This document shows positions 1-19,373 of a stretch of DNA of 37,452 nt, piece by piece. Made by a program: the position numbers and the translations under genes. Each line of letters opens with the position of its first letter. Position 1 is the first letter of the stretch. Below the pieces are notes generated by a model. The model was not told where the DNA came from. It searched no databases and saw only the letters and a list, made by a program, of their open reading frames with translations. Source of the stretch: a virus; IMG/VR virus record IMGVR_UViG_3300010370_000096, positions 1-37,452 of that record. One strand, written 5' to 3'.

Positions 1-1
1 C

Positions 2-1464: not shown

Positions 1465-2020
1465 AAGAATCCGATTGTGCATGGGCATGACCCAGCAGGC
1501 TTTTGCCGACATGCTGGGCTGCTCACAGGGCAACATCGCTCATTACGAAATCAGGGAACAAACCGTGCCGCCTGAAGTGGCGAAGAAAATCATTCAGGAA
1601 GCCTCGGTCCGTGGTTCTCGGGTAACTTACGAAGACATTTACGGCGTAATTGATGCGCCTGTAGCGGGGGAAAAGATGAAGATAGAAGAGGATGTTACGG
1701 TTGTCATAGAAGAAAACGGTGCGTTGGCCGAGGTTCTGATTCCGGCGTTTGAGTTGAATGACATTCGCAGGGAGAGGGATGAGTACTTGGCGCAAACGGC
1801 GTCAGACTTGTATGACCGTGTGGTCTACATGGTCCGGGCCTCGGGCCTGGATCAGGTAGCAAATCCAGAAGTAAAACTGGAAGTGTATCTAGGGGACTTG
1901 CGTGCTTCGGTGTCCTTTTGGCTCGATTCGCGCAGAGAGCGGCAAGACAAACTAAAACAAAGCATTAATGATTGCATGGGGCAGTTACTTAATGCAAGCA
2001 AGGAACTGCAATCGCAGTAA
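1445..2020 (+). CDS. XRE/Cro-CI family transcriptional regulator
   Basis: Residues 5-45 form a helix-turn-helix of the XRE type. The pattern IKRIRLCMGMTQQAFADMLG, followed by a second helix with CSQGNIAHYE, matches the recognition region of Cro/CI-like DNA-binding proteins. After residue 60 the protein changes to an acidic beta-rich segment and then a helical C-terminal half with many charged residues, which may serve for oligomerisation. Two ATGs in tandem (1445 and 1448) could start it, and I kept the first. No peptidase or lexA-like cleavage domain is seen. The palindromes at 9407-9442 are possible operators for it, but that link is inference. Confidence 0.82.
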   Translation: MMENGIKRIRLCMGMTQQAFADMLGCSQGNIAHYEIREQTVPPEVAKKIIQEASVRGSRVTYEDIYGVIDAPVAGEKMKIEEDVTVVIEENGALAEVLIPAFELNDIRRERDEYLAQTASDLYDRVVYMVRASGLDQVANPEVKLEVYLGDLRASVSFWLDSRRERQDKLKQSINDCMGQLLNASKELQSQ

Positions 2021-2038
2021 TTTAAAAGGAGTTATAAA

Positions 2039-2533
2039 GTGAGAAAGTCAACACGTGCAAACAAGATCAGGGCTTACATTGAAGCGCATCCTGACGATAG
2101 TTCTGGTTCCATCGCAAAACGGTTCAAGGTCCATGTTTCGCGGATATATCAGCTTAGGAAACAGGTGCTCGCTGTGCCAATGCCGGATTTAACGCAGGCT
2201 ACGCAGGAAGCGTATGAAAAGATGGTGGAATCAATGTCCAATCCAAAGGTGGAGGAGCCGAAGGATGTGGACGCGATCCTTGACGAACGGGCCAGGGAGT
2301 ACGGCAAGTTCATTGAGGGCGCGGAGATCATGCAGATGACCAAACGCTTGATTCATAACTACATTGATCAGCGGGGCACGGCAATGGCTTTTGATCAGTT
2401 AGAAGCTATTGACATGATCATCCACAAGCTGGGCCGCATGATCAATGGCAACCCTGACAAGGCAGATCATTGGCTTGACATCGCCGGATATGCCAAGCTG
2501 GTTGCTGATCGGCTTAATGGCAATGTCCGATAA
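2039..2533 (+). CDS. HTH protein fused to a DUF6378-like domain
   Basis: The GTG start at 2039 has an AAGGAG site at 2025-2030. Residues 4-45 look like a helix-turn-helix module: helices with SSGSIAKRFKVHVSRIYQLR are typical of homeodomain-like binders. Residues 76-160 resemble the phage family known as DUF6378. They show an ERAREYGKF motif, a helical segment, then LEAIDMIIHKLGRMINGNPD and HWLDIAGYAKLVADRL. The domain's function is unknown. The joining of an HTH to this domain suggests a DNA-linked or regulatory role (inference). It is the last gene of the plus cluster, and its TAA abuts the stop of the convergent polymerase gene with no bases between. Confidence 0.75.
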   Translation: MRKSTRANKIRAYIEAHPDDSSGSIAKRFKVHVSRIYQLRKQVLAVPMPDLTQATQEAYEKMVESMSNPKVEEPKDVDAILDERAREYGKFIEGAEIMQMTKRLIHNYIDQRGTAMAFDQLEAIDMIIHKLGRMINGNPDKADHWLDIAGYAKLVADRLNGNVR

Positions 2534-4399
2534 CTACTTAGCTTCCCCCCAGCTTGGGCCGACTTCTACATCGCACTTGCTGGGGACTTCCAGGCTCACG
2601 GCGTGAGCCATTATCCTGGCTGCTTCCACAGCATCCTCCCGACTCTTGACTGACAGGGCCACCTCATCATGAACTTGCAGGATGGGGTCAAACCCTGCTT
2701 TCTTTAGCGCCACCATGGCAGCCTTGGTCTGATCAGCAGCAGAACCCTGAATCAAACGGTTCAAACCCTTGTAAGTTCCGGCACGCTTGATCCGTTGGCC
2801 GTATTCAATCACTGCCTGCTCACGGGGAAGGGCTTTGTTTACGCCCCATTCCATCGGTTCCCACAGAGGAAAACGGCACTTACGGCCAAGTAACGTGCGG
2901 ATTGCGCCACCAGCAGCCGGATGTTCAATACGTTTCATCACCGCGTTCACGGTTCCCTTGAGGAATGGGACATTATGGTGAAACTTGGTGATCAGTTCAT
3001 CTGCCTCTTCTAAATTCAAATCCAACTGATGGGATAGCTTATTCTTGCCCATGCCGTACATCAAACCAAGGCCAATGGTTTTGGCGGCCTTTCGTTTAAT
3101 CCCTGCCATGTCGGCCACCATCTGGTGGAAGTCGGTGTCCGGGTTGCTCTGATACGCATCCACCATCCGATCTGCCCCAGGCAAGTCCAACAGATTGGCG
3201 TAATGCACCAGAAGGCGCGGTTCCTGGGAGGAAAAATCGTTGGACGCCCAGATTTGTTCTTCTTCTGGAAGGAACAGGCTGCGGACCATCGGGCCGATAA
3301 CTTCGTGACGGGCGGGAACCTGCTGAAGGTTTGGGTTGGCCATGGACAGGCGTCCGGTAACCGTGCCGCCATCATCTGAGCGCATCTGATTGACGTGCGG
3401 ATGGATGCGCCCGGTCTTGGCACTGAAGTCCATGTACGGCTGCAAGAAGGTGCTGTGCGTCTTATTGATTTCCCGGGCCTCTACGATCATTTTGGCTAGG
3501 GGATGTTCGTGGGTATCAAGGAACAGTTTTGTAAAGCTAGGAAGCCCGTTAGCGGTCTTGCTGTAGGCAATTCCAAGCTTGTCGAAGGCAGATGCAATGG
3601 ATTGGGCTGCCCAGATGTCAACTTTCTGTCCGGTCTGGGATTTTATTTTCTGTAAAAGCTCAGTCTCACGCTTTCGCATGTCATCAATCAGCCTGGAGCA
3701 TTTGTCCCGGTCAAAGCGGATTCCTCGACGGGTCATTTCTAGGAGAACTGGGAAGACATCGGTTTCCAGTTGGAAAATGGATTCAACTTCGTCCTGACGC
3801 ATCTTGATCTTGAAGGCTTGCCAAAGCTTAAGGGTCAGTGCAGCATCCTGCTCGGCGTACTCACCAACATACATTGCTGGGAGTTTCCAAAGTTCCTTTT
3901 TCGGATGAACGCCAAAGTCAGCCGCCGCTTGCTTAAGGCCTTGTTCGGATTTAACCTCTTGGAGGTAGTCGAAGCCAAGCGCATTGAGGCTGTATGAGAA
4001 GCGGTTTTCATCGAGCAGCGGGGCAGCGAGCATCGTATCGTAGATGCGGCCATTGATTGTGAATCCACTTGCACCCAGCCACCCGGCGTCATACGCAGCG
4101 TTGTGCATGATCTTGTCGGCGGGCGTGGCGAGGACATCTTTGATCCATCTCTCAACCAATCGCTTGTCAAGATTGCCACCACCAGCATGGGCAACAGGAT
4201 AATACCCAGACCAACCATCCACGGCCACGGCATATCCGACGATAAAACCGTCACCCCTAGGCCACCCAGGACCATAAGACTCCATGTTGGGATCGCACGT
4301 TTCGAGGTCAATTGCAATCTCCTTAGCTGTAGAAAGATTGGGAAAAGTGTCGGGAGCAACCCATTCTATTGGGGTCGGGAACATTGGAATTGTTTTCAT
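2534..4399 (-). CDS. Family A DNA polymerase with 3'-5' exonuclease (PolA-like)
   Basis: It copies phage DNA and proofreads. The 621 residues hold a DnaQ-like 3'-5' exonuclease with Exo I D31/E33, Exo II N100/D104 and Exo III Y181/D185. A family A polymerase follows, with motif A at 384-397 (D388), the O-helix at about 436-451 and motif C HDE at 577-579. No 5'-3' exonuclease domain is present, as usual in phages. In the O-helix, K440 and Y448 align with E. coli Lys758 and Tyr766, which places L444 at the position of Phe762; this is a Leu762-type enzyme. The start ATG overlaps the upstream helicase stop by four bases. It is the last gene of the minus-strand replication operon. Confidence 0.97.
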   Translation of the reverse strand: MKTIPMFPTPIEWVAPDTFPNLSTAKEIAIDLETCDPNMESYGPGWPRGDGFIVGYAVAVDGWSGYYPVAHAGGGNLDKRLVERWIKDVLATPADKIMHNAAYDAGWLGASGFTINGRIYDTMLAAPLLDENRFSYSLNALGFDYLQEVKSEQGLKQAAADFGVHPKKELWKLPAMYVGEYAEQDAALTLKLWQAFKIKMRQDEVESIFQLETDVFPVLLEMTRRGIRFDRDKCSRLIDDMRKRETELLQKIKSQTGQKVDIWAAQSIASAFDKLGIAYSKTANGLPSFTKLFLDTHEHPLAKMIVEAREINKTHSTFLQPYMDFSAKTGRIHPHVNQMRSDDGGTVTGRLSMANPNLQQVPARHEVIGPMVRSLFLPEEEQIWASNDFSSQEPRLLVHYANLLDLPGADRMVDAYQSNPDTDFHQMVADMAGIKRKAAKTIGLGLMYGMGKNKLSHQLDLNLEEADELITKFHHNVPFLKGTVNAVMKRIEHPAAGGAIRTLLGRKCRFPLWEPMEWGVNKALPREQAVIEYGQRIKRAGTYKGLNRLIQGSAADQTKAAMVALKKAGFDPILQVHDEVALSVKSREDAVEAARIMAHAVSLEVPSKCDVEVGPSWGEAK

Positions 4400-5898
4400 A
4401 TGTGAAAGCCCCTGTCTGTGTATTTTGGTAAGACTAGGTGCAGGGATTGCCTAGCTCTTGTTACGCCAACATAAAACATTCGATGGATGTCGTCCGAATT
4501 ACGTTGTGCATCTTTCATAAACTTTGGCGAGAGGTCCATGAGCAGCAAGACGTTGTCCGCCTCCCCGCCTTTTGCACCGTGAATGGTGGAAAGCTTTATG
4601 GAAGCCGAATTCGATAGCTTGCCGCCGTGCCGTAAGATTGAAATAAGATAGTCCCGTTTGTCGTGGGCGAGTTTTCCCATGGCCTCGTGCCAGATGGGCG
4701 TATGCTTAAGCCCAAAGGAATCCATGAGCCGCTCAGAAGTATAAAGCTGATCCAGTTCGCCCTTAAATATCCGGTAGCCTCGGGTCACGTTGTCTGAATC
4801 TAGATAGCGGTAGATTTCTTTGACTTCTTCTCCCGGGATGGCCTGTCCTTTACGCAGGCGTTCCCAATTGATCACCGATCTGACAATGGCAGGAGACACG
4901 CTGGGAATGCCTGATCTTTCGTAGAGAACACCAAGGCTCTTGAGCCATGCTCCGATAGGGTCGAGCAAGTAATTGGTGCTGCCCAGAACAAGCCATTCGC
5001 CCGTTAAAACGGGAACATCTTCAAATCGGTAGTAGGTGCTGACGCTGCCCTCAAATTCACGGGGGCGCCATTGTTTTTCCTGTCGATGTCGAATGCGCTT
5101 GACAATACTACCGGCCAGACGGTGAACGCTGCTAGGTACACGATAGGATTGCTCAAGAACCTTTATCTTTCCATTAAAGGACAGAAAACTATTGACATCG
5201 GCCCCGGCCCAAGTGAACACAGCCTGATCGTCATCCCCAGCTATAAACACCCGTTGTGCCTTGGCAGCCAGGGCTTCCACCAGTTGCCACTGCAGGCGGG
5301 ACAAGTCCTGCGCCTCGTCGATTATTACAACCTCCAACGATGGCAAGAGCTCAGTCTGGCTGATGATCATCTCCAGCAAGTCGGTGAAGTCCAGAAGATC
5401 ACGGCTACTTTTGTAGTGGCGATAAGTACGGTCTACAAATTCAAAATGATGCCATTCGATATCCAGTTTGGACTCGTTGTAGTGCTGGCGCAGGTCTTTA
5501 CCCCGGATTCTGGCAAGGTCTATTTCGTTCAGGATTGGGTTGTCCGCTTTGGAGACGCCATCTTCCTCTGAACTGATGCCAACGCTGATACCTGCCTGTG
5601 CGGCAAATTCCTTGAAATTGGAGGGCTGCATGATGTATTCAGCCTTTATGCCAAGAGCCTGGAATGCCAAGCTGTGCAGCGTTCGGAAGTAAGGGAAATC
5701 AGTCTTCGGGTTTAAGTGCGGAAAGCGCTTGACCGCACGGTCCCGCGCTTCATGAGATGCTTTTCTGGTGAAAGAAAAATACCCAATCTGGTTGGACGGG
5801 ACCCCCTCCGCAAGTTCCTTGTCCACAACCCCTAGAAGATAGGTCGTCTTGCCGCTGCCCGGAGGTCCGAAGACCTTTTCAATGTTCGACGCCATCAT
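4396..5898 (-). CDS. UvrD/Rep-like superfamily 1 DNA helicase
   Basis: This is an ATP-driven DNA helicase of superfamily 1A. Numbered from ATG 5898, motif I GPPGSGKT is at 11-18 and motif II DEAQD at 194-198. Motif III GDDDQAV is at about 221-227, with the conserved arginine in QSYRVP at about 253. Motif V has HGAKG at about 440-444 and motif VI VTRAR at about 479-483. At 500 residues it is shorter than full UvrD or Rep, with reduced accessory subdomains, which is common in phage forms. An in-frame TTG at 5922 would add eight residues; I prefer the ATG pair at 5898/5895. It overlaps both neighbours, so translation is probably coupled with primase and polymerase. Confidence 0.95.
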   Translation of the reverse strand: MMASNIEKVFGPPGSGKTTYLLGVVDKELAEGVPSNQIGYFSFTRKASHEARDRAVKRFPHLNPKTDFPYFRTLHSLAFQALGIKAEYIMQPSNFKEFAAQAGISVGISSEEDGVSKADNPILNEIDLARIRGKDLRQHYNESKLDIEWHHFEFVDRTYRHYKSSRDLLDFTDLLEMIISQTELLPSLEVVIIDEAQDLSRLQWQLVEALAAKAQRVFIAGDDDQAVFTWAGADVNSFLSFNGKIKVLEQSYRVPSSVHRLAGSIVKRIRHRQEKQWRPREFEGSVSTYYRFEDVPVLTGEWLVLGSTNYLLDPIGAWLKSLGVLYERSGIPSVSPAIVRSVINWERLRKGQAIPGEEVKEIYRYLDSDNVTRGYRIFKGELDQLYTSERLMDSFGLKHTPIWHEAMGKLAHDKRDYLISILRHGGKLSNSASIKLSTIHGAKGGEADNVLLLMDLSPKFMKDAQRNSDDIHRMFYVGVTRARQSLHLVLPKYTDRGFHI

Positions 5899-6127
5899 CG
5901 TACATATCGTTAATCCAAACAAGGACGGGCGTGTCAGGTCCGATGTATGCGCCCTCGATGTTGTATTCGATGTATTCTCGGGCCTCTTCCATGTCCATGC
6001 CGTCTCGTTGCATGAGGATGTTACGCATGGTTTCAGCGTCGTAGATAAGCACTTCCACCTGGGTACGATCTGTCCAGATCAAAGCGGGGCCAATAATAGC
6101 TTCATCAAAACCATCCCATTTTTTCAA
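5879..6127 (-). CDS. Small acidic hypothetical protein (82 aa)
   Basis: An acidic protein of 82 residues with no membrane segment. Its middle carries a helical patch with Met-Glu-Glu-Ala-Arg-Glu-Tyr-Ile-Glu-Tyr-Asn, followed by an Ile-Glu-Gly-Ala-Tyr-Ile-Gly turn and a strand ending in Val-Trp-Ile-Asn-Asp. Proteins with this Glu-Tyr-Asn-x-Glu-Gly-Ala-Tyr pattern are common as unknowns in phage genomes; that is memory of the pattern, not a search. It starts in a four-base overlap with the primase stop and overlaps the helicase start. It therefore sits in the replication operon and may assist one of the two enzymes. Confidence 0.7.
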   Translation of the reverse strand: MKKWDGFDEAIIGPALIWTDRTQVEVLIYDAETMRNILMQRDGMDMEEAREYIEYNIEGAYIGPDTPVLVWINDMYDDGVEH

Positions 6128-7656
6128 AATGGACTCCCTTGTTCGCGTTGAGTTTGTGTTTCAAACGGCGCATCTTGCCGATCAAAACGGGGAATACGCC
6201 AGCAACGTGCAGTTCTGCCCTTGAGCATCAAACTGATCGGCTCGCCACCAAGATCACGCATTCGTTGCGCCATCTTCGGGGCTGTCATACCTTTGAAGTT
6301 GTTGCGAGACAAATGCGCTTCGAGGTCCTTGATCCTGAAATAGGTTTTACCCTCTTCCTCTTCTGTCCATGGTCGGCCCATTAGAATTTCATCACGAGCA
6401 AGCGCCTGCTGCATATGCGTGGTGAATTCTTCGAGCAGGTCCATGAACTGACCCGTTACGCTGGTGTCTTCGCTGGCCTCTGTGATCTGCTCAGTTTCCA
6501 CCATCTCCTTGAGTAGCGCATTCAGGAGGTGTTCCCAATCCTGTTTACGCAGGGTAGGCGGAAGAATGTTCAGGCGCTCGACACACGCTTTTTGAAAAGC
6601 TGCTTGGTTGTACAGGCTCTCCGTATCCAGTTCTATGCGCTTGCCATTTACATCCAAGAACCACAGAGGCGGTTCACTGGCGTACTTTGACAAACTGGCG
6701 ATTTGAGCGGCATCTGGAGCATTTGATCCAATACCAAACTTCCTGCTTCGGCACAGCCCGGAGTTGCAAAATCCGTTCAAAGGAGCATCCTTACACTTGT
6801 AAAGATAGTCCTTTTTCCCAGCCTGCTTGATCAGCAGTTGTACTTCATTGTTCGGCAGTGGCGGAGCCACAAAACGCTGGTTATACTCAACCATCTTGTC
6901 TTCCCAACCAGAGGGATAGACTTTTTTCAAATAAACGCCAATGTTGAACAAACCGTTGTTCCGCGTACCCTCAGGGAACCCCTGAGCGCAAAGAGCCTGG
7001 AGGCACGGTGGGCCATCCTTGATCGGACTATCAGCCTGCTTAGGCGCTTCTGGCGCTTCAATCGGAAGGTCCTGGGCAAATCGGGCATGGAGTTCGTAAA
7101 ACTCTTCCAGAGTGGCAGCAGAGCCATCATCATTAAAAGCGTAGCGAGTACCCGCATCTCCCCCAAAATAAGGAAGGTTCAGGAAGTTGCCTGTATCGCC
7201 CCGGTCAACAAGGATTTCTGACTGTTTGGGGAATATTTCCCGCCCTGCTTCGCCAAGAAGTGACGCGGCGTTCTTCAGGTAGTTTTGAAAATCCCGTGCA
7301 GGGGCAGGCTCCTTGGTAAAAAGGAAAACATGCGCTCCACCGGATTTGCTTCGACAGACTACAAGGGGAAGGTTTAACTGGCGAACCTTTTCCACCAGTC
7401 CCTTATGGTCAAGAGGGTACTGGTCAATATCAATACAACCCCAAATGCAAGAGTTGTCAGCCCTAATAGGAATAATACCGAGAGAAGGCTCAACACCGTT
7501 AAGATGCTTGACCCAAAGGTCATCCGTTGGGGGCTTGCGAACCACCGTAGCTTGTCCCGCTTGTTTGCCATCTCCACGCTCCGATTTGATTTTGTAAGTG
7601 CCATAAGCGATATCCAACCCGCTAAATATGGCCTTAAATCTGGTGATGTCAGTCAT
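6124..7656 (-). CDS. AEP-superfamily primase-polymerase (TOTE/Prim-Pol-like)
   Basis: It probably makes primers for the phage polymerase. The N-terminal 170 residues match an archaeo-eukaryotic-type primase core. A metal-binding hDhD motif CIDIDQYP gives D76 and D78, and the nucleotide-binding SKSGGAHVF motif gives H109. These are followed by FPKQ at 142-145 and LNLPYF at 159-164, as in TOTE-type primase domains. Residues 215-310 contain C218, C288, C297 and C302 around a helical PLPNNEV segment, a layout like PriL C-terminal iron-sulfur domains. The C-terminal 190 residues are helical and could bind DNA or a helicase. Only 14 bases separate the start from the upstream terminator's T-run, and no ribosome site is evident. 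Confidence 0.88.
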   Translation of the reverse strand: MTDITRFKAIFSGLDIAYGTYKIKSERGDGKQAGQATVVRKPPTDDLWVKHLNGVEPSLGIIPIRADNSCIWGCIDIDQYPLDHKGLVEKVRQLNLPLVVCRSKSGGAHVFLFTKEPAPARDFQNYLKNAASLLGEAGREIFPKQSEILVDRGDTGNFLNLPYFGGDAGTRYAFNDDGSAATLEEFYELHARFAQDLPIEAPEAPKQADSPIKDGPPCLQALCAQGFPEGTRNNGLFNIGVYLKKVYPSGWEDKMVEYNQRFVAPPLPNNEVQLLIKQAGKKDYLYKCKDAPLNGFCNSGLCRSRKFGIGSNAPDAAQIASLSKYASEPPLWFLDVNGKRIELDTESLYNQAAFQKACVERLNILPPTLRKQDWEHLLNALLKEMVETEQITEASEDTSVTGQFMDLLEEFTTHMQQALARDEILMGRPWTEEEEGKTYFRIKDLEAHLSRNNFKGMTAPKMAQRMRDLGGEPISLMLKGRTARCWRIPRFDRQDAPFETQTQREQGSPF

Positions 7657-7670
7657 GTGAACTAAAGAGG

Positions 7671-7700
7671 GAAAAAGGGCGCTGATTCACACCAGCGCCC
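7671..7700 (-). terminator. Intrinsic terminator inside the replication operon
   Basis: On the minus strand an eight-pair perfect stem (GGGCGCTG / CAGCGCCC, at 7693-7700 and 7677-7684) with an 8-nt loop is followed directly by TTTTT (7676-7672). It lies between the SSB-like gene stop (7707) and the primase start (7656). It should partly or fully end transcripts from the 9.4 kb promoter, lowering primase, helicase and polymerase relative to the SSB-like protein. Confidence 0.8.
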
Positions 7701-7706
7701 CGAGGT

Positions 7707-8483
7707 TTAGAACGGGATGGAACTGCTGTCCACGGTTCCTTCCGCATGCTCATGCTTGACCTTGACTTCGCCTGCATTAATCTGTGAGGCAAAGGACTTG
7801 GCAGCCGCATAAGCGTTCATGTCCTCAACTGGACCAACCTTCTCGATCTCCCAGCCAAACCACTTGCCTTTGTCGTTGGACTCGGCTTGAGTCGTCAGGC
7901 GGTACACATGACTGTACATGGGAGGGGTGAAAGGGCCGTTCTTACCAATCATCTTGGTAGCCATCATCATGCTGTTCCACTTGCGGCTTTTCTTAAGCTG
8001 CGTGGACTTCATGGTGATCAGTGCTGGATTAGGCATGCCATCTTCGCCCATGACCATCACATAGTGGTTGGCCGTGTTCTCAATGTAGTTACCGTTGTCC
8101 AGATAGTCCTTGTTGTCGCCCGGTTCACGGTGCGTGCGACTAAGGATATCGCTAGTGGCCGGATACACCGCAACGGGTGCGCCGGAACCCGATCCGCGAG
8201 GAGCCCATTCAATGTACTGACGCACATAGGCCACGGGGATCACTTCAATGCCTTTCTTGCCGTCATAAAGCTCGTTGGTGACCGAGTTATAGACCATGCC
8301 CGGAAGAGCACCGTCGATCTCACCCACCTCAGGGCTGGTATTGGTCAGAAGGCGAAGAAAGGGCAACGCAAAATCTTCCTGACCCATGCTACCGAAGCCG
8401 GACTGTGCGTCCTCTTCAAATGCATTGCCCAGGGCAACTGCGTATTCTTTTTTCTCTTGTACTGCTACTTGATTCTTGCTCAT
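7707..8483 (-). CDS. Putative single-stranded DNA-binding protein
   Basis: The 258-residue protein is beta-rich in the middle and ends in an acidic tail closing with Asp-Ser-Ser-Ser-Ile-Pro-Phe. That C-terminus is like the Ile-Pro-Phe tip by which bacterial SSB proteins recruit partners. The middle contains a repeated Met-Met-Met-Ala-Thr-Lys stretch and a Gly-Lys-Trp-Phe-Gly-Trp-Glu-Ile strand. I see no clear classical OB-fold signature, so SSB function rests on the tail, the size and the position beside replication genes. An AAAGGAAA ribosome site precedes the ATG. High output is expected since it is placed before an intrinsic terminator. It could alternatively be a recombination mediator. 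Confidence 0.68.
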   Translation of the reverse strand: MSKNQVAVQEKKEYAVALGNAFEEDAQSGFGSMGQEDFALPFLRLLTNTSPEVGEIDGALPGMVYNSVTNELYDGKKGIEVIPVAYVRQYIEWAPRGSGSGAPVAVYPATSDILSRTHREPGDNKDYLDNGNYIENTANHYVMVMGEDGMPNPALITMKSTQLKKSRKWNSMMMATKMIGKNGPFTPPMYSHVYRLTTQAESNDKGKWFGWEIEKVGPVEDMNAYAAAKSFASQINAGEVKVKHEHAEGTVDSSSIPF

Positions 8484-8495
8484 GATAGATTTCCT

Positions 8496-9053
8496 TTAAG
8501 CTGATTTAATGGTCGCTTTTTGGCCAATGAATACGCCAAAAAGTTCTGTGGGGAATGCGTTGCCGCGCTCCACCATGTCGCGAGCCCAAGCCTTGAGGGT
8601 TTGAGGCTCGATCTTCTGCGCTTGCTCCACTGGGTAGTTTTGCTCACGCAGTTGATTCAGTAGGCTATCGCACAATTCGTCTTCCCCACGCCCGAATCGT
8701 ACAGACACCGTGTTTTTGATAATGTCGTCGTAACCATGTTCACGCAGCCACTCAAAGGCCTGCGCCCGGTTCTCTTCCTTAATGGTCGCGCCGTAGAACG
8801 GTTTGATTGACACCTTGCTGCCATCAGCCATGGTGAAATCTTTCATGCCCAGTTCTGAAAGCATATTGGGGATGGACTCCTCCAATAGCTTGCGGTACTG
8901 CTCATTACGTTCCTTGAGCACAGACTCAATCTCTTCGATCTCTTTCTCAAGCATCTTGGCTCGCTTAGCCAGTGCTGCAATCGAGGACAGGTCCTCATCT
9001 TTAACGGTCAACGCACCTGCGTCTTCCTCAAACATAGCGTTTAGGCTACTCAT
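8496..9053 (-). CDS. Coiled-coil replication-operon protein, function unknown
   Basis: Residues 24-65 form a long charged helix, very probably coiled coil, with many Glu, Lys and Leu at heptad-like spacing. After this comes a compact domain with MADGSKVSIKPFYGATI, a helix, then a FGRGEDE turn and helices to the end, which closes with LFGVFIGQKATIKSA. I recognise this as a conserved phage unknown often next to SSB-like genes, without known activity. AAGGAGA precedes the start, and the first codons overlap the upstream gene by eight bases. Coupled synthesis with the SSB-like protein suggests a role in handling DNA (inference). Confidence 0.75.
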   Translation of the reverse strand: MSSLNAMFEEDAGALTVKDEDLSSIAALAKRAKMLEKEIEEIESVLKERNEQYRKLLEESIPNMLSELGMKDFTMADGSKVSIKPFYGATIKEENRAQAFEWLREHGYDDIIKNTVSVRFGRGEDELCDSLLNQLREQNYPVEQAQKIEPQTLKAWARDMVERGNAFPTELFGVFIGQKATIKSA

Positions 9054-9375
9054 CGATCTCTCCTTTCTGAGTTACATCCACTTTAACAGGAATATACATG
9101 CGCTCGCGGCGGTCCCACTTCAACGCAGTGTAGCGGCCAGAGTTGAAAAACGCAGCAATAGAGCAGGCCAACCCTATCGCTACGGGGTCACCTGTCAGCA
9201 ACAGGTAATCTTCATCAGAAAACTTGCGTAGCTTGGTACGCATGCTCCTTATGGTCGGTGCAGTGCTGAAGGCAATCTGATTGTACGGCGGAAGCAGTAC
9301 CTTCATTTCGCCAAACTTCATTGCGGGGGCAATGTCGTGATTCGGCATCTCTTGAACTACATATACGGTTGACAC
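9046..9375 (-). CDS. Conserved phage hypothetical protein, first gene of replication operon
   Basis: This is the first gene of the minus-strand operon, starting with GTG at 9375 after a GAAAGGAG site and about 25 bases from the predicted transcript start. The 109 residues show a beta-rich N-terminal half with VLLPPYNQIAFSTAP, then a charged helix, an acidic SDEDYLLLTGDP turn and an ALACS-like small-residue helix. A short tail rich in Arg and Lys follows. I know of similar phage unknowns but no function. The final eight bases overlap the next gene. Its promoter-proximal position suggests it is made early and in quantity. Confidence 0.72.
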   Translation of the reverse strand: MSTVYVVQEMPNHDIAPAMKFGEMKVLLPPYNQIAFSTAPTIRSMRTKLRKFSDEDYLLLTGDPVAIGLACSIAAFFNSGRYTALKWDRRERMYIPVKVDVTQKGEIDE

Positions 9376-9406
9376 GTTTTCGCTCTCCTTTCTTCAAACG
9401 TGCTTT

Positions 9407-9418
9407 TAGTGTACACTA
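9407..9418. promoter_or_regulatory. Perfect 12-bp palindrome over the -10 box (candidate operator)
   Basis: TAGTGTACACTA is a perfect palindrome. It covers the -10 element of the minus-strand promoter and could bind a dimeric repressor. The XRE-type protein encoded at 1445-2020 is one candidate, but nothing in the sequence proves the link. Confidence 0.55.
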
Positions 9419-9435
9419 TCTTTCAAGGTTGTCAA
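9408..9435 (-). promoter_or_regulatory. Sigma70-like promoter for the minus-strand replication operon
   Basis: On the minus strand a perfect TTGACA (9435-9430) is followed after 16 bases by TACACT (9413-9408), which matches TATAAT at four of six positions. Transcription would begin near 9400, about 25 bases before the GTG at 9375. The two boxes lie inside palindromes 9425-9442 and 9407-9418, an arrangement expected of a repressible promoter. Confidence 0.65.
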
Positions 9436-9442
9436 CAACCTT
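9425..9442. promoter_or_regulatory. 18-bp inverted repeat over the -35 box (candidate operator or attenuator)
   Basis: AAGGTTGTCAACAACCTT has eight-base arms around CA. It covers the minus-strand TTGACA. On the plus strand the arms can fold into a hairpin followed by TTTT, so it might also act as an attenuator before the helicase gene at 9464. The operator reading seems the better one because a second palindrome covers the -10 box. Confidence 0.55.
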
Positions 9443-9463
9443 TTTTAAGAAAGGAAGAAAGTT

Positions 9464-10918
9464 ATGGATTATTTTTTAACGCGCTACCCCTTCAAGAACA
9501 AGCCTTTTCTCCATCAAGCGGCGTATTTACAGCGTTTCTGGGAGGACAAAGAGGCTGCTGTCTTGGCTGAAATGGGCACTGGAAAGAGCTTTATGCTCAT
9601 AAACAACGCCGCCATGTTGTACGACAAGGGGCGGATAAATGCCATGTTGATTGTGGCTCCCAAGGGCGTATACCGTAACTGGTATACCTCCGAAATCCCA
9701 AAGCATATGCCGGATCACGTCCAGTACACCATGGCCTGTTGGTCCCCCTCCCCCCGTAGGGCGGAAAAGGAGGAAATGGACAGAATGATGATGGCAACGG
9801 ATACGTTGCGGATTCTGATCATGAATGTGGAGGCGTTTAGTACGGAAAAAGGCATGTTGTTTGCCCGTACTTTCCTACGGGTAACTGAGGCCTTTATGGC
9901 TATTGACGAAAGCACAACCATCAAGACGCCTAACGCCAAGCGGACAAAAGGCATCATCAAGGTAGGCAAGGAGGCGCGGTACAGGAGAATTGCCACGGGC
10001 TCCCCGGTGACAAAAAGCCCCCTGGACTTGTTTAGCCAGTGTGAATTCCTTGGTGCTGATTGCCTTGGATACCACAGCTTTTATGCATTTCAAGCCCGGT
10101 ACGCGATCCTTATGGAACGCCGCATGGCAACCCACACCTTTAAGCAGATTGTGGGCTACCGCCACCTCGAAGAATTGCAGAAAAAGCTAAACAACTTTTC
10201 CTTTCGCGTTACCAAGGAAGAGTGCCTGGACCTGCCTGAAAAAGTGTTTGTTCGCAGGGAAATTGAGTTGACCCCAGATCAGAAAAAGTACTATGACCAG
10301 ATGAAGCTAATGGCGCTGGCTTTGTTTGAGGACGGTTCTGTCATGACCACCAACAACGCCCTGACACAGCTTATGCGTCTGCATCAGATTTGCTGTGGGC
10401 ACATCAAGTTGGATGATGGGCGGCAAGAGGACATCCCCAGCAACCGTGTTAAAGAGCTACTGGATCAGATCGAGGAAGTGGATGGCAAGGTCATCATCTG
10501 GGCAACCTACCGCCGGGATATTGAAAACATCCGCCTAGCTCTGCAAAAAGAGTACGGCATGAATTCTGTTGCAACCTACTTCGGGGATACCGAGGCCGAG
10601 GAGCGGCAGCAGATTGTCACTAACTTTCAGAACCCTGACCATGAGCTTCGTTTCTTTGTTGGCAACCCACGTACTGGTGGTTACGGACTGACGCTCACAG
10701 CGGCTAAAACGGTGATCTACTACAGCAACAACTTCGATTTGGAAGTCCGGCTGCAGTCCGAAGACCGCGCTCACCGTATCGGGCAAACCAACAAGGTGAC
10801 CTACATCGATTTCATCAGCCCCGGCACAGTTGATGAGCACATTGTCAAGGCGCTTCGTAACAAGATCAACATTGCCAACGCTGTGCTTGGCGAAGAACTC
10901 AAGGAATGGATTAAATAA
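9464..10918 (+). CDS. SNF2-like superfamily 2 helicase/translocase
   Basis: A DNA-dependent ATPase of the SNF2/RapA type. The Walker A motif EMGTGKS is at 36-42, the Walker B-type motif DES at about 148-150 and motif III ATGSP at about 177-181. Motif VI, RAHRIGQT, is at about 435-442; the Gln-x-x-x-Arg-Ala-x-Arg-Ile-Gly-Gln form is diagnostic of the SNF2 group. At 484 residues it is a minimal two-lobe enzyme without chromatin-type extra domains. AAAGGA at about 9450-9455 precedes the ATG. Its stop and the next gene's ATG share one base (TAATG), so it is coupled to the RecB-like nuclease. The pair may process or remodel DNA during replication and recombination (inference). Confidence 0.94.
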   Translation: MDYFLTRYPFKNKPFLHQAAYLQRFWEDKEAAVLAEMGTGKSFMLINNAAMLYDKGRINAMLIVAPKGVYRNWYTSEIPKHMPDHVQYTMACWSPSPRRAEKEEMDRMMMATDTLRILIMNVEAFSTEKGMLFARTFLRVTEAFMAIDESTTIKTPNAKRTKGIIKVGKEARYRRIATGSPVTKSPLDLFSQCEFLGADCLGYHSFYAFQARYAILMERRMATHTFKQIVGYRHLEELQKKLNNFSFRVTKEECLDLPEKVFVRREIELTPDQKKYYDQMKLMALALFEDGSVMTTNNALTQLMRLHQICCGHIKLDDGRQEDIPSNRVKELLDQIEEVDGKVIIWATYRRDIENIRLALQKEYGMNSVATYFGDTEAEERQQIVTNFQNPDHELRFFVGNPRTGGYGLTLTAAKTVIYYSNNFDLEVRLQSEDRAHRIGQTNKVTYIDFISPGTVDEHIVKALRNKINIANAVLGEELKEWIK

Positions 10919-11664
10919 TGCAGCTTGTCCCAATCAGAAATAAGTTTGTCTACCCCAAGCTCAAGCGCGTAGACCTGCCCACGGGCCGCGTTTATACGTT
11001 GGATGGCACGGACCCCGTTCCAAGCGTCACCACCATCCTGTCAGCAACCAAGGACCGTCAGCATCTAGATGCCTGGGAAGAGCGCATTGGTAAGGAAGAA
11101 GCCAACCGCATCAAGAACGATGCTGCCACGGTGGGCACGCACATGCACTCCGTGGTTGAACGCCTGCTGTTAAACAGACCGCTGGAAACACCGCGCACAT
11201 GGTTGCAGATTAAGGGCTACCGAATGGGCTACCTGTTGATTGAAAGTTTTTTCCACAATCTGCAGGAAGCGTGGGGCACGGAAATCCCATTACTGTACCC
11301 GGGCCGATATGCTGGGACATCGGATTGCATTGGTGTGTACAAGGGCAAGCCCTCCATCATCGACTTTAAGCAAGCCAATCGCATGAAGAAGCGGTCATGG
11401 ATTGATGATTACTTTGTCCAGCTTGCTGCGTATTCCGAAGCGCACAACAAACAGCACGGGACGGAAATCAATCAGGGCGTGATCCTGATGGTGTCACAGG
11501 ACGGAGAAGTGCAGGAATTTGTGACCGTTGGCAGGGAATTTGATTCGTACCGGGACGCATGGTGGCGCAAGGTCGAGGATCACGCAAAAAGGAGCCCGGA
11601 ACACGGTCCGGGCTCAAATGCCAGTGTGGGAGAAAGGACACAAGAGTCACACGGCAACTGCTAG
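10918..11664 (+). CDS. PD-(D/E)XK nuclease, RecB/Cas4-like exonuclease
   Basis: A 248-residue nuclease of the PD-(D/E)XK fold. Residues 73-81 contain a GTHMH motif followed by E81. GTSD gives D136 and IIDFKQA gives the paired D149 and K151. QLAAY at 168-172 is the helix motif typical of RecB-family enzymes. An intact set of metal ligands implies an active enzyme. Such phage nucleases serve in recombination, end processing or host DNA breakdown; which one is not clear here. It begins in a one-base overlap with the SNF2-like gene. The last 30 residues look poorly folded, and the DNA there also holds the antisense terminator of the late operon. Confidence 0.93.
   Translation: MQLVPIRNKFVYPKLKRVDLPTGRVYTLDGTDPVPSVTTILSATKDRQHLDAWEERIGKEEANRIKNDAATVGTHMHSVVERLLLNRPLETPRTWLQIKGYRMGYLLIESFFHNLQEAWGTEIPLLYPGRYAGTSDCIGVYKGKPSIIDFKQANRMKKRSWIDDYFVQLAAYSEAHNKQHGTEINQGVILMVSQDGEVQEFVTVGREFDSYRDAWWRKVEDHAKRSPEHGPGSNASVGERTQESHGNC
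11586..11615 (-). terminator. Intrinsic terminator of the late operon, antisense inside the nuclease gene
   Basis: A perfect nine-pair stem (GAGCCCGGA at 11592-11600 with TCCGGGCTC at 11607-11615) and six-base loop. On the minus strand it is followed by one C and TTTTT (11590-11586). It stands just after the last minus-strand late gene (stop at 11668). On the plus strand there is no T-run, so it should act on the minus strand only. Confidence 0.82.
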
Positions 11665-11667
11665 TTT

Positions 11668-12048
11668 CTATTCGAGGTTACGAAGCTTGTAGATGACTGA
11701 TAGATATGTTTCGATTGCGGTATCTATCAGGTTCTGAATAGCGGTGTCGGACTTGTCGCATGCTCTGTACCGCAGGTCTTCAACAGAGTTCATGTGGCTT
11801 TCAAGGATTGTTGCGGTTGCTGCAATTGTCTTTTTCCCTTTTGGGCATTCCAGACAAGGAATGTCGTCCATCAAGCCATACATGCCTTGATAGGCTTCTG
11901 CTATCGAATCGGCGTTGTCGATAATGTCATCATAAAATGATCCAAGCGCCATATGAGCAGCAAAACTGCCCGGGCCCGTTACCGCCAAGTGGCGACGATG
12001 AGCAAATTCACGGCTTAAAAACAAAGTTGCGATAAGTTGTTCCATCAT
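11668..12048 (-). CDS. Ferritin-like/Dps-like helical protein (DUF5856-like)
   Basis: The 126 residues appear to form a four-helix bundle. The N-terminal helix has MEQLIATLFLSREFAHRRHL and the next SFAAHMALGSFYDDIIDNAD, then IAEAYQGMYGLMDDIP. The spacing of His, Glu and Asp residues recalls Dps/ferritin-like proteins, and the whole resembles phage members of DUF5856. A metal or iron role is possible, but ligand residues are not proven. A strong AGGAGG site precedes ATG 12048, better than most in this operon, suggesting good expression at the operon end. It starts in a four-base overlap with the giant virion gene. Only three bases separate its stop from the convergent nuclease stop. Confidence 0.7.
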   Translation of the reverse strand: MMEQLIATLFLSREFAHRRHLAVTGPGSFAAHMALGSFYDDIIDNADSIAEAYQGMYGLMDDIPCLECPKGKKTIAATATILESHMNSVEDLRYRACDKSDTAIQNLIDTAIETYLSVIYKLRNLE

Positions 12049-15000
12049 TGGCGGCCTCCTAATTGCTGTTGACGCTGCTGAAGCATCTGACTAATTGGGT
12101 CATTTGGGAAAAGTTGCGGGTACATCAGCGGTACTTGTGGACTGCTTATTGGGGGCGGCGGCCCAACCCGAAGGTTTGGCATTCCCCTGGTTTGCGGTGC
12201 AGGTGGCATTTTACGCAACATCTGGGCTGCTGTGCCGGGAACCTCCGGAAGTCCTGCTGTAGCTGTCGGGACAGTCCTATCCTGCTGCGCCAACTTGGAA
12301 GCCTCAAGAGCCGTGATCCGGGCAGGGGAAGGAACGTATTTTGTTGGGGAAATGCCAATATCTTGTAGCTTTGCGGCTACTTTTTTGGCCTCTTCAGGCG
12401 TACCTACGCGGACCATGGATTTTGCAAATTCCGGGTCTTCCAGCGCTTTTGTAAAAATACGCTGATACAACTGGTTTTCAATTGATCCAGTCAGGCGCAA
12501 CAACATTGCCAATGCGCCGGTTTGCGGATTAATCCTGCCCACTGCAGCTTCACGCATCGTAGTCGTCAGGAATTGAATACCAGAACCAAATAGGCGCTTC
12601 ATCGCTTGATCAAGAGAATCAAACGCTGGAATCTGCCCCGTTATGTCGGAAAAGGCATTGACCCGACGCTGCAGATCGGCCAAGGTTTTGAGATCATTTA
12701 GGTGAGAAGTATTTTTAAACAGAACACTGAGTGACTTCTCGTTGTTCTTCAAGAAATTTTCCAACGCACCACCGGCTTGTGCGCCGCCTGTGGACAAATC
12801 CCAGACTTTACGGCGTAAGGCAGCCAAGTCATCCGGATTCTTTCCAAGCTGATCTACCAGCACCCTCATTGTTGCCGGGTCCTGTAGCGCCTTGGTCAGT
12901 ACTTGTTGCGGATCGGCATCTGGCCGAGAAGCTTTTGCAAGCAATGCATCAAGTTCATTGTTAGTGGCGTCCACTCGACGGCGGTCCAAGTCGCCCATGC
13001 GCTTTGCAAAATCATCAGCATTTGCTACTTCATCCCGCAGACGTTGCTGCACGGCAGGAGGCAGTGTCTCAACAATATTTTTATTGTTGTCAAGAATGCT
13101 GCGAATCTTTTTCGGGTCTACCAGACCGTCCTGAGTGACCGCACCCTTGGATCGGAGCCAATCAATAGCTCCACGGGTAAACATGTCTTCTTTAACAGGG
13201 TTGTTCCCCAGCGTCAAATCTAGTTGACGCAGATTTTCTGCCGATTTAAATGCTGTACGCATCAAATCTTCATTGGGCAAGAGGTAGTCTCTTCCCCCTG
13301 CTCGCTTAGATGTCAGAAGCAGCGGTAAGCGTTGTTCAAAGCCAGCGTTGTAATCATCCAGCACCATCTTCATGGCGCCGTATTCTTGATTGACTTTTGG
13401 AATAGAACCAAGAACTAGGTTTTCAACATCCTTATATGCGGCATTACCTCGATCAAGGCGCAATTGAGCATCCGTGGTCCGTGTTCCACGGCCCGATAGC
13501 TGTGAGCGGTTGAACGCATTAACAGCATCATGGCGGGAGCGTTGAGCGGCAGCCAACAAGTCCAACGCTTCCGGGATGTTCAGGTCTATCTTTGTTCCCT
13601 CTGCCGCAATCAATTCAGCATCTTTGCGGATTTGATCTGGGTTGATATAGACTGCGCGTCCTGGATAGCCAGTAGCTACCCGAATCTCGCCTTCCTTTTC
13701 CCCAGTTTTAAATCCAGCAGACTTGAGCAGGTTGGCTTCTCTAACGGATGCAATATCCTTTTTGCCCTTTGCTTTGGCAGGATTGACAAGCATACGAACG
13801 CTTTTTATTAACTCGTCCTGGAGTGCAGGATCAAGCTCAAACCCACCAAGCTGTTCTTTTATGCGCTGTTGGATTAGCGATTCAGTAGCATGATCAAGTG
13901 CCTTACGACGAGCCACATCTGTAGATGCAATCATGTTTTGCAAAATACGAATCGGCTCAGGCATTTCCCCGCCCTTGGCCCGTGTTGCACGAGCAGGGTT
14001 GTATTTTTCTACAAGCTTACGGGCAGCATCCTCGATGTCATAGGCTGGATACAACGATTTTCCTGCATCAGCGCCTTCACGCACGCGGGTGTCCGCCAGT
14101 GTGCCGTCAGGGTTTATAGCGCGTTTCATACCTAACTTGGACAAGACTCTTTGGCGCATTCCAAAGTCTGCTTCCATGTCCGCCAAAATCACTCCGCGCA
14201 GTTCATTGTTGAGCATGTCAATGTTCTGCGGGCCAAGGCGCTCGGAGATGGCAGCAACTTCTGCCTCAGTAAGGTCTTTCTTCTGACGAAGAAGATCATC
14301 AAACAGGGATTGACGTTCCTGTTGCGCGGCCAAGAAAGCTTCCTCAATTGGCTTGCGTGTAGCGGGAGAAAAGGAATCAAATAGAGAAGCCAGCTTTTGC
14401 TGGTTTTCGTTGATTCGAGCTTTTACTGATTCAAGTTCTTTGGGGCCCAGTTGCTCTAATAGCTCGGCTTTTCGCTTGAGCAGCGGGTTATACATTGTCC
14501 GCTCAGACACGTCGAACAAGAATCCCGCATCTGCAATTCTGGGATCAGCCAAAGCCGCTTCTAGCTGCTTGAGTGCTTGCTGCGCTTCGGGGCTTTCGCT
14601 GATCGGGCCGAATACCTGAGTCAGCTTGCTTTCCGCACGTTTTACCAGTGTGCGAGGAATGATGTTGATTAGGGGAAGCCTATACCCCTTTGGTAGCGAT
14701 TGAATGGCCTCATGTTCCACATTGCCAAGACCACCAGAAGCACCTTTGATTTTGTCGATGGTCCAGCCAGCGGCTTTTACGCTGGGAAGATTAGCAGCAG
14801 CAAAAGGGAGCCCCATAAAAGCAGCGGCTGGCAGCAAATCCTTGTACATACTTTTGTACGGATTGCTGTTATCAACATTTTCTTCCACTGCCTGACGCAG
14901 GCCCTCATAGCCCGCGCCAAATGCTACGTCCGTAGCGGCAGCAAGGCGGGGGTTCTTCTGGACAAAGCTGATTGCATCATTAGCAATTGACTTCAATAGT

Positions 15001-15428
15001 CCGGCCCCGGGTTCAGCAGCCCTGACCATCGGAGCGCTTTTAGCAGCATACGCAAGAATTCCTGTGAAAGGTAGCGTCCCACCAATGCCTTCGCCCACGG
15101 CACGAGCGTAACGCTCTTCACTGTTTACAGCGGCCCGTTGTCCTTTATTAAAGAACTTGGTAAGCGTAAAAACTTCTTCTGGATTGAGCCCTAGACCTTT
15201 GGCTATTAGCTTTGTTCCCGCATCTGGCAATGCAAACAACGCGCTGTTAAAGCCCCATGATAGGTTGTTGATCAGCCCCGCCGCAGTGCCTTCTGGAGAA
15301 GGCACGTCTACGCCAGTGGCTTTTCTAGGATCGACCTCTGTGGGCGTTCCTTCAACCCTGCCTTCAGTTCCAGAGCCAAAAAGATCAATTTTTCGTCCCT
15401 GTGCATCTTCGACGTAAAACGAGCTCAT
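12045..15428 (-). CDS. Giant internal virion/ejection-type protein (1127 aa)
   Basis: A very large, largely helical protein at the end of the virion gene block. It starts with a small hydrophilic segment, then Gly/Ala-rich hydrophobic stretches (about 50-230) that could insert into a membrane. Long charged helices with many Ala, Leu, Arg and Glu follow over 270-1000, then a proline- and glutamine-rich tail. No lytic transglycosylase motif is evident to me. Size, composition and location match podovirus internal core/ejection proteins (such as T7 gp15/gp16 by position, not by clear homology). GAGAGGC precedes the start. Function is inferred from context; sequence alone shows only a long helical protein. 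Confidence 0.72.
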   Translation of the reverse strand: MSSFYVEDAQGRKIDLFGSGTEGRVEGTPTEVDPRKATGVDVPSPEGTAAGLINNLSWGFNSALFALPDAGTKLIAKGLGLNPEEVFTLTKFFNKGQRAAVNSEERYARAVGEGIGGTLPFTGILAYAAKSAPMVRAAEPGAGLLKSIANDAISFVQKNPRLAAATDVAFGAGYEGLRQAVEENVDNSNPYKSMYKDLLPAAAFMGLPFAAANLPSVKAAGWTIDKIKGASGGLGNVEHEAIQSLPKGYRLPLINIIPRTLVKRAESKLTQVFGPISESPEAQQALKQLEAALADPRIADAGFLFDVSERTMYNPLLKRKAELLEQLGPKELESVKARINENQQKLASLFDSFSPATRKPIEEAFLAAQQERQSLFDDLLRQKKDLTEAEVAAISERLGPQNIDMLNNELRGVILADMEADFGMRQRVLSKLGMKRAINPDGTLADTRVREGADAGKSLYPAYDIEDAARKLVEKYNPARATRAKGGEMPEPIRILQNMIASTDVARRKALDHATESLIQQRIKEQLGGFELDPALQDELIKSVRMLVNPAKAKGKKDIASVREANLLKSAGFKTGEKEGEIRVATGYPGRAVYINPDQIRKDAELIAAEGTKIDLNIPEALDLLAAAQRSRHDAVNAFNRSQLSGRGTRTTDAQLRLDRGNAAYKDVENLVLGSIPKVNQEYGAMKMVLDDYNAGFEQRLPLLLTSKRAGGRDYLLPNEDLMRTAFKSAENLRQLDLTLGNNPVKEDMFTRGAIDWLRSKGAVTQDGLVDPKKIRSILDNNKNIVETLPPAVQQRLRDEVANADDFAKRMGDLDRRRVDATNNELDALLAKASRPDADPQQVLTKALQDPATMRVLVDQLGKNPDDLAALRRKVWDLSTGGAQAGGALENFLKNNEKSLSVLFKNTSHLNDLKTLADLQRRVNAFSDITGQIPAFDSLDQAMKRLFGSGIQFLTTTMREAAVGRINPQTGALAMLLRLTGSIENQLYQRIFTKALEDPEFAKSMVRVGTPEEAKKVAAKLQDIGISPTKYVPSPARITALEASKLAQQDRTVPTATAGLPEVPGTAAQMLRKMPPAPQTRGMPNLRVGPPPPISSPQVPLMYPQLFPNDPISQMLQQRQQQLGGRQ

Positions 15429-15441
15429 CGCTGCCTCTCAA

Positions 15442-17916
15442 TCACTGAATGGATGCGCCAAGGATACTTGAAACAGGCACAAGAACCTTTTCGCCATTTG
15501 GACGCTTGATGTAGACCGATGCCCCTGGCGCAGTGGATTTGCCTAGTGTCGATTGTAAGAAATTAGCCATCTTGGCTTTTTCTTCATCGTCATTGGGAAT
15601 CACAAACGGGTCGTTCTTGGTTCCTGTATTCGGCACTGACATCACTAATTCTCGCGTACCTATACCTAGCTGTCTGGCACGGTCATTCCACTCATTCTTA
15701 TACATCGTAGCCAACGAATTAAGAGTGGCTGCAGCAAGCTCAGGGTTCTTGAGCAATGCAGTCGGGTCCTTGACCGCAGTGCTGTTTTCCTGTGCCCATC
15801 TTTGCTGCTGCGTGGATAGGCGGCCTTCATTTGCCGTTGCTAAGCGACTGACGGAATCAAAGCCCTGACGCAGTATTGTCGCAGCCTTTTGCAGGTCAGT
15901 GTTGGGGCTGACCAACGCATCAGGCAGCACAGGGACAAAAATGTTATTTTTAATATCAGATACGAACGCTCCAGGGCCGTAGGCCTGCTGGACCACGCTC
16001 TTCATGTATTCAATTTTACTGAGATTATCATTGATCAGATTTATTTCCCCAACAATTTTTTCACGATCTTTAGGATTGGTTACTGTAATAGCAGTAGCTG
16101 ATCCTGCATCTCTAACGAATGGATTGCTCGTGTCGAAGTAGTTATAATTTTTTCGGATATCTTGGATGGTCGGATGATCCTGATTGAGGAATGTTCCAAG
16201 ATACGAGCCGTCTTTGCTTTCATAGTTGATCAGTCCTACTCCAGCATCTTTTGCAATAACCTGATTCTTCTCGGCCAACTTTCCCAGTAGTCTGTAATCA
16301 CCTTCCAGCGCTTTAAGCTTCAAGGCCTGCAGGAACTTGTCTTCTGTAGTGACATCCGTAATGGCCTGCTGCAGTGTTGCCGTTTTGCCCTTGAGTGCCA
16401 GTTCGCGCTCTTGTGCGGCAATAGCTGCCATGCCCCTTGGAACACCAGCAAATGCTTCGCCCACCGCCATGGCTGCAGTAGGTTTTCCAATGGTTGCAAG
16501 TTTTAGCCCTGCTTCAGACAACAAGAGCAGTGCGTTCATTTTCGCCGCTTCTTTGTCCGAGCCAAAAATCTCCTCAAACAAAGGTGCGTATTCTCCTTGC
16601 GCTTCTTTAATGCGCTCCATCTTTGTCTTCGGCCCCTGCTTTTCTTGAGCAGCTTGCGTCTTAGAGATAAAGTCACCAAGAGGCATAGTAGAAGGGGACA
16701 GGCCCTCCCCCTGAGCTCTTTCTTGCTCTGGGGTAAATGCAGGCGCTTCACCTTGAGCTATTTCCTGTTCTGGAGTCGCAGAAAGTTTTCCTGCCCCGCT
16801 AAAAGGATCGCCAGAATATTCATATAAAACAGGGTTAAACGGAATTGGCAGTTTCTTGCCTTCTGGTCCTTGCTGCGAGGTCCAGTCTTCACCTTTCGGG
16901 GCAGATATGTCATACGTCATTGATGGAGGCTTGCTCATCAACTCCAGACGAGCAGCGCGATCTGCTGCTGTATCAACAGGGATCTGATTTACCAAATCGG
17001 ATTGTTCTCCTGCCCCGTCCCCGCCACGAGTAGCCAATCCATATGCTGGGACACTGCCAAAAGCAGCCGTTGATTTAAGAGCGCCCGCGAGTCGTGGGTA
17101 TTGATCAACAAACCTACTTGCTCCCTGCATCATTCCTTGCGTAAATGTCGGGTACAGCAGTTCCCCGCCACGAGCAATCTGCTCAGCCGTATATCGACCA
17201 CCAGGACCCCGAACATTTTCCAAAAACGGCTGGGTCATCGAAGGCTGCATAAACATACGGCCCAGAGCGGCGTTTGCCGCACCGGCTTTGTCGCTCATAA
17301 ACTGAGCAGCACGCATGGCCGGGTTGACAAAAGCGCCTAAGAAAGCATGCATCGGTGGCATGCCATCCGGGGTCGGCGGTTCTACAGCCCCGCCGTGTGC
17401 ATATTGTTGTGGGGCACTAGGCCCCTGGGAAAAAGGGGGAGCACTCTCCATGCCCTGGGGCATCGGAATACCGCCTTGGGGCATGGCCGCGCCGGGTTGC
17501 TGGGGGGCAGGTGCAGGCGCACCACCCATTGGGGGCTGTCCGCCCGGGGGCATCATTCCTTGGGCCTGGGGCAATGCACCGATGCCCCCGCCTTGTTGCT
17601 GCATAGCCAGTTGTGTCTGCAGCATCGCCAAGACTTCTGGCGGCGTATCCATCGCAGCTTCTTCGCCAACCATCTGAGCAAGTTCCTGATAGCGAGCGTC
17701 AACAGAGCGCATGTCACCACGCAGATTGTTCATCAGAATCTCTGGATTCTGGGGAGTCCTGGACATGGCGGGCATTTGCTCCATCTCAGCATTCTCATCC
17801 CGATCCATCTCACCTTCCATCTCATCCATGTCAAACCCAGACATGATGCCCGAGTTGCGCGACTCCTTTGACAGAGGCATCGCAAACATTGCTCGTTTTA
17901 GGATTTCTGTTTTCAT
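15442..17916 (-). CDS. Large virion protein with Pro/Gly/Met-rich N-terminal part (824 aa)
   Basis: Residues 25-50 are acidic and Met-rich, and 105-185 are made of Pro, Gly, Gln, Met and Ala with little secondary structure, ending in YAHGGAV at 172-178. Helical small-residue segments follow (190-290). Residues 366-376 (YSGDPFSGAG core) and two copies of a TPEQE-AQGE motif (381-390 and 395-409) recur in the 865-residue neighbour. After 440 it is more regular, with coiled helices and a beta-rich end. No enzyme motif is seen. Position among ejection-type genes and the shared motifs suggest an internal virion or tail-core component. Confidence 0.72.
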   Translation of the reverse strand: MKTEILKRAMFAMPLSKESRNSGIMSGFDMDEMEGEMDRDENAEMEQMPAMSRTPQNPEILMNNLRGDMRSVDARYQELAQMVGEEAAMDTPPEVLAMLQTQLAMQQQGGGIGALPQAQGMMPPGGQPPMGGAPAPAPQQPGAAMPQGGIPMPQGMESAPPFSQGPSAPQQYAHGGAVEPPTPDGMPPMHAFLGAFVNPAMRAAQFMSDKAGAANAALGRMFMQPSMTQPFLENVRGPGGRYTAEQIARGGELLYPTFTQGMMQGASRFVDQYPRLAGALKSTAAFGSVPAYGLATRGGDGAGEQSDLVNQIPVDTAADRAARLELMSKPPSMTYDISAPKGEDWTSQQGPEGKKLPIPFNPVLYEYSGDPFSGAGKLSATPEQEIAQGEAPAFTPEQERAQGEGLSPSTMPLGDFISKTQAAQEKQGPKTKMERIKEAQGEYAPLFEEIFGSDKEAAKMNALLLLSEAGLKLATIGKPTAAMAVGEAFAGVPRGMAAIAAQERELALKGKTATLQQAITDVTTEDKFLQALKLKALEGDYRLLGKLAEKNQVIAKDAGVGLINYESKDGSYLGTFLNQDHPTIQDIRKNYNYFDTSNPFVRDAGSATAITVTNPKDREKIVGEINLINDNLSKIEYMKSVVQQAYGPGAFVSDIKNNIFVPVLPDALVSPNTDLQKAATILRQGFDSVSRLATANEGRLSTQQQRWAQENSTAVKDPTALLKNPELAAATLNSLATMYKNEWNDRARQLGIGTRELVMSVPNTGTKNDPFVIPNDDEEKAKMANFLQSTLGKSTAPGASVYIKRPNGEKVLVPVSSILGASIQ

Positions 17917-17925
17917 GTCTTGCCT

Positions 17926-19371: not shown

Positions 19372-19373
19372 TT

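Follow-up and report, generated by a model that had tools for sequence, protein, structure and literature searches.

How could a gap of 88 bp serve two gene sets that are transcribed away from each other? The question is raised by positions 9376–9463 of a 37,452-base virus record (hereinafter the window, i.e., the whole stretch of DNA that was analyzed). The gap is bordered by a GTG at 9375 on the minus strand and an ATG at 9464 on the plus strand. Leftward from 9375, the minus strand codes for a replication operon, whose first gene specifies a small protein (9046–9375; phrog_5888, of unknown function), followed by a DUF7307 protein, a Pam3 gp34-like protein, a primase, a UvrD-like helicase and DNA polymerase A. 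A small overlapping ORF at 5879–6127 of the window has no Pfam match. On the plus strand lies a pair of genes for an SNF2-type DNA helicase (9464–10,918) and an exonuclease (10,918–11,664; phrog_298, also matching, less strongly, a CRISPR/Cas-associated nuclease family). Both sets are preceded by a Shine-Dalgarno element, recognizable as AGAAAGGA at 9386–9393 on the minus strand and at 9448–9455 on the plus strand, each of which is kept in most relatives. The window has no match in Rfam.

The initial annotation, whose limits for the gap our coordinates match, saw here a compact switch for the replication operon and perhaps for the helicase–nuclease pair. The former part is supported, and the gap very probably serves the helicase–nuclease pair as well. 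The control region is real and conserved in relatives, and it is probably functional. On the minus strand, a −35 hexamer TTGACA (9430–9435) is separated by a 16-bp spacer from a −10 hexamer TACACT (9408–9413), as annotated. This promoter of the replication operon is the best sigma70-like match in positions 1–20,000 (10 of 12 positions), and the arrangement TTGACA-N15-18-TACACT occurs a single time in the window as against an expectation of 0.01. The −10 hexamer is TACACT in 54 of 60 non-redundant relatives; the −35 hexamer is TTGACA in 30 of 58 and otherwise mostly TTGCNN, or TTGACG, with a spacer of 16–18 bp in 49 of the 58 gaps.

Each of these two boxes had been described as lying under a perfect palindrome. 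For the −10 box this is correct: TAGTGTACACTA at 9407–9418 is a perfect 12-bp palindrome that includes the minus −10. The 18-bp inverted repeat over the −35 box, AAGGTTGTCAACAACCTT, is positioned as described (9425–9442) but is not a perfect palindrome, its reverse complement being AAGGTTGTTGACAACCTT; it comprises two perfect 8-bp arms around a mismatched 2-bp CA center. A palindrome of at least 12 bp is in itself unremarkable in the window (5 observed versus 9.5 expected), and the 12-bp palindrome and the 18-bp repeat come together in 0.7% of shuffled 88-bp gaps. Conservation in relatives is stronger evidence than this chance estimate against an accidental origin of the palindrome and the repeat.

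The window is related to Phage DSL-LC04 (OR003939), with 66.5% identity along the length of the helicase, and to numerous contigs of uncultured phages; the Yuavirus phages are distant relatives. Two scans by both flanking proteins, one by helicase alignment and a further one of contigs from bacterial genomes yielded about 160 gaps; the divergent arrangement is common to these related loci, which were reduced to 57–60 non-redundant gaps. DSL-LC04 resembles the window in gene order, in the divergent gap and in the position of the box and the stem, whereas in the more distant Pseudomonas phage YuA the small gene is oriented like the helicase and there is no such gap. In nearly all closer relatives the minus-gene Shine-Dalgarno, about 45–70 bp and the helicase Shine-Dalgarno follow one another, an order that is missing in far marine relatives; the furthest relatives have neither the −10 box nor the stem. 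Three loci found after the hypothesis was set (L254, L255 and L256) keep both features, as judged by eye. Four marine loci without the divergent gap (L236, L237, L240 and L243) display, upstream of the helicase, GCTATTATA, which resembles an extended −10 and is flanked by GGGT/ACCC arms in the first two. In DSL-LC04 (locus L162), a small gene at 6391–6648 is annotated as an RNA polymerase sigma-G factor.

The −10 box was analyzed in 57 non-redundant gaps chosen by their flanks alone, with 13 unparsable loci left uncounted. The pattern AnnnTAnnnT, which describes two −10 frames on opposite strands with a common central TA, is present in 53 of the 57 gaps as compared to 11.6 ± 2.8 in shuffles, and the stricter AnTnTAnAnT in 48 as compared to 1.1 ± 0.9. 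In the window, the second frame corresponds to a plus-strand hexamer TACACT at 9412–9417, the −10 of a putative plus promoter, whose central TA is that of the minus −10. When the minus TACACT is used as the anchor, the −9A and −7T of the plus hexamer are unchanged in 48 of 48 gaps, while its −10 and −8 positions vary (TACACT in 31, TACAAT in 11, TAGACT in 3 and TATACT in 3), and conservation fades quickly in the bases beyond the hexamer. The initial annotation had taken the two palindromes, which differ in sequence, as potential sites for two regulators; in about half of the relatives, however, the −10 box is no longer palindromic and both −10 hexamers survive. Two −10 elements probably fit this pattern better, as a protein operator should retain or alter its two halves in parallel. 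The box is maintained as a pair of overlapping −10 elements rather than as a fixed palindrome, with the plus −10 drifting only where sigma70 tolerates it. The −10 positions place the predicted divergent starts about 23–24 bp apart.

The plus strand offers no recognizable −35, mostly matching it at 2–3 of 6 positions and at 4 at best. The strength of the minus promoter, set beside this deficit, could be taken to mean that the minus promoter alone is real, that the plus half of the box owes its conservation to extending the minus −10 upstream, and that the helicase is transcribed from elsewhere. We regard this as unlikely: the nearest upstream plus-strand genes end at 2533 and are separated from the helicase by the opposite operon, the conserved positions beyond the minus −10 are exactly the key positions of a plus −10, and the hairpin discussed below stands at a fixed distance from the plus −10.

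The inverted repeat could form a stem-loop AAGGTTG-TCAA-CAACCTT, with a 7-bp stem and the loop TCAA (9425–9442, plus strand), and the minus −35 hexamer falls in its loop and inner stem. Among 60 gaps we observe 32 different arm pairs (AAGGTTG, AGGGT, CAGGG, CGGGT, CACGT, AAGCTG, CAGGAC and others), yet the arms stay complementary. The pairing score of each phage's own arms averages 5.94 as compared to 4.40 ± 0.15 for arms cross-paired between phages, with none of 5000 permutations exceeding 4.98, indicating that the arms are maintained by compensating changes. On the box-bearing set of gaps, from which all the offset and stem statistics come, the arm pairing included, the summed stem score downstream of the box is 340.6 versus 235.5 ± 9.2 in shuffles, and the left arm begins 6–8 nt past the plus −10, close to a start site that is itself predicted, in 77% of relatives versus 17% in shuffles. 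The stems are about 4–7 bp long, the loops vary, being mostly 4–10 long, and the stem register slips by at most one base between relatives; some relatives (L063, L065 and L222) have lost the stem. Folded by itself, the leader of the window shows no unusual stability relative to shuffles (z −0.82). A strand test based on RNA wobble pairs counted 6 G-U and 5 A-C among bridged helices, and its earlier versions likewise came out equal. Most simply, the repeat can be read as a stem-loop with which the helicase–nuclease mRNA begins, the RNA being the level at which we presume it to act.

An inverted repeat over a −35 and a box over a −10 occupy the usual place for repression. The −35 repeat could be the operator of a co-evolving homodimeric phage repressor, with the −10 palindrome as a site of the same or another regulator. 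Such a homodimer, or any symmetric protein site with a co-evolving regulator, would also yield matched changes in the two arms, and the dyad center is rather constant in position (SD 1.0). The initial annotation had proposed to look for conserved palindromes in the aligned gaps of relatives: at the −35 the symmetry is kept, whereas at the −10 it persists only in about half, with the box dropping its palindromy and retaining both −10s. Moreover, it is the symmetry of the −35 repeat and not its sequence that is kept, and the combination of 32 arm pairs with variable loops means that neither the half-site sequence nor the half-site spacing is fixed. Nor does the site occur in several copies per genome: the box is found at most once in a genome, the strict form has a single occurrence in each of 21 of the 27 long relatives, with variants in the gap of the remaining ones, and the window has no second good copy of the repeat.

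The regulator genes proposed for the site do not travel with it either. An XRE protein with a helix-turn-helix is present in the window (1445–2020), and both it and the DUF6378 protein had been named as candidates. The XRE protein is unmatched in 16 of the 27 long relatives, 10 of which have the strict box, and 10 of the 27 lack the DUF6378 protein; some of these records may be fragments, while that of DSL-LC04 is complete. Neither protein is a general partner of the site, although contigs may be incomplete. Thus, arm diversity, the single copy and the frequent absence of the regulator led us to reject an operator as the leading reading and to consider it improbable, although a phage-specific repressor may act in the window itself. 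The repressor-controlled switches of temperate phages, of the lambda cI/cro type, combine divergent promoters, a short gap and dyad symmetry over the promoter boxes. The gap studied here shares the divergent promoters in a short gap and the symmetry on the boxes; unlike those switches, it has no repeated operators, no fixed operator sequence and no repressor gene that always accompanies the site.

Past the stem lies a T run (CCTTTTTT), in the window as well as in its near relatives, which would fit an attenuator or intrinsic terminator of the plus transcripts. We consider such a role very improbable, with at least 4 T in the seven bases past the stem in only 16 of 60 relatives and with stems of just a few base pairs that would sit within 25 nt of the start; the scarcity of the T run led to the rejection of an intrinsic terminator. 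Elsewhere in the window, a strong terminator-like hairpin GAGCCCGGACCGTGTTCCGGGCTC followed by CTTTTT lies on the minus strand within the 3′ end of the exonuclease gene (11,592–11,615), where it would keep leftward transcripts of the structural genes from continuing antisense into the helicase. Another terminator-like hairpin with a T run (7676–7701, minus strand) is located inside the replication operon, between the Pam3 gp34-like and primase genes. A further perfect palindrome, CAAGCTGATGCATCAGCTTG, of 20 bp (19,397–19,416), is found near the 3′ end of the gene at 19,374–21,971 and adjoins a minus-strand sigma70-like match.

A weaker inverted repeat, CACGTTT/AAACGTG (9373–9402), is present in the minus leader; it has the Shine-Dalgarno in its loop and a stem that reaches the GTG start. 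Its own arms score 5.93 as compared to 5.45 ± 0.14 when cross-paired, and it is not stable by folding z-score; pairing in this repeat is suggestive only.

Comparison across the relatives thus shows that what is conserved at this locus, as read from aligned gaps, is both −10s, the minus −35 and the complementarity of arms whose sequence changes. We posit, with somewhat better than even confidence, that a bidirectional sigma70-type promoter together with a 5′-terminal mRNA hairpin explains the gap. The two overlapping −10 elements with their common central TA would allow the host RNA polymerase to bind in either orientation, never in both at once, and we infer that both promoters are active. In the minus orientation, the TTGACA −35 would make for a strong promoter of the replication operon, with a predicted start near 9401–9403. 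In the plus orientation, the helicase–nuclease promoter, with a predicted start near 9424–9425, would be weaker or in need of help, since it has no good −35. Its transcript would open directly with the stem-loop (9425–9442), followed at once by the Shine-Dalgarno, and the 5′-terminal hairpin would most likely shield the message from 5′-end-dependent decay. The hairpin loop would also supply the −35 core for the opposite promoter, and this dual use could explain the conservation of the loop next to a stem that only keeps its pairing. More tentatively, about 35 bp in this phage clade may fuse a symmetric two-way −10, a covarying 5′ RNA hairpin and an opposite −35 in its loop, such that the orientation of the polymerase picks the gene set during infection; we see this as possible but short of an even chance.

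Bidirectional promoters have been described mainly via start-site sequencing in bacteria, and Warman and colleagues reportedly presented versions with a shared −10 in 2021. The gap resembles these in that its opposite-strand −10s overlap by sequence symmetry and in that orientation can be biased by the quality of the −35. The class is defined by start sites 7–25 bp apart (Middlemiss et al. 2023, PMC10268837), and in Escherichia coli the starts are commonly 18 bp apart, with 10 and 23 bp also occurring (Warman et al. 2026, PMC12825309). The spacing predicted for the gap falls within this range and near the 23-bp class. In contrast to the bacterial cases, the gap is known by its sequence only, belongs to phages, is clade-wide, has one flank in a hairpin and has predicted starts.

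As for the hairpin, a 5′ hairpin impedes the conversion of the 5′ end by RppH and can stabilize the bla mRNA (PMC3997798), and 5′-terminal mRNA stem-loops are on record, in the account given there, for ompA, papA and bla constructs (Emory et al. 1992, as cited in PMC3997798). Comparably, the gap would place a short stem-loop close to the predicted 5′ end, with a free Shine-Dalgarno downstream of it. Unlike in those mRNAs, its stem changes fast and its loop holds the core of an opposite −35, and stabilization would be its presumed effect. A literature search for overlapping divergent phage promoters with stem-loops found nothing relevant. The locus is best accounted for by two known elements that overlap in an unusual way, namely a bidirectional promoter and a 5′ hairpin. 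The clade-wide alignment, with both −10s persisting under drift, provides independent evolutionary support for selected symmetry, and these naturally aligned gaps constitute a ready test set. More generally, a repressor should not be presumed wherever a phage promoter carries dyad symmetry.
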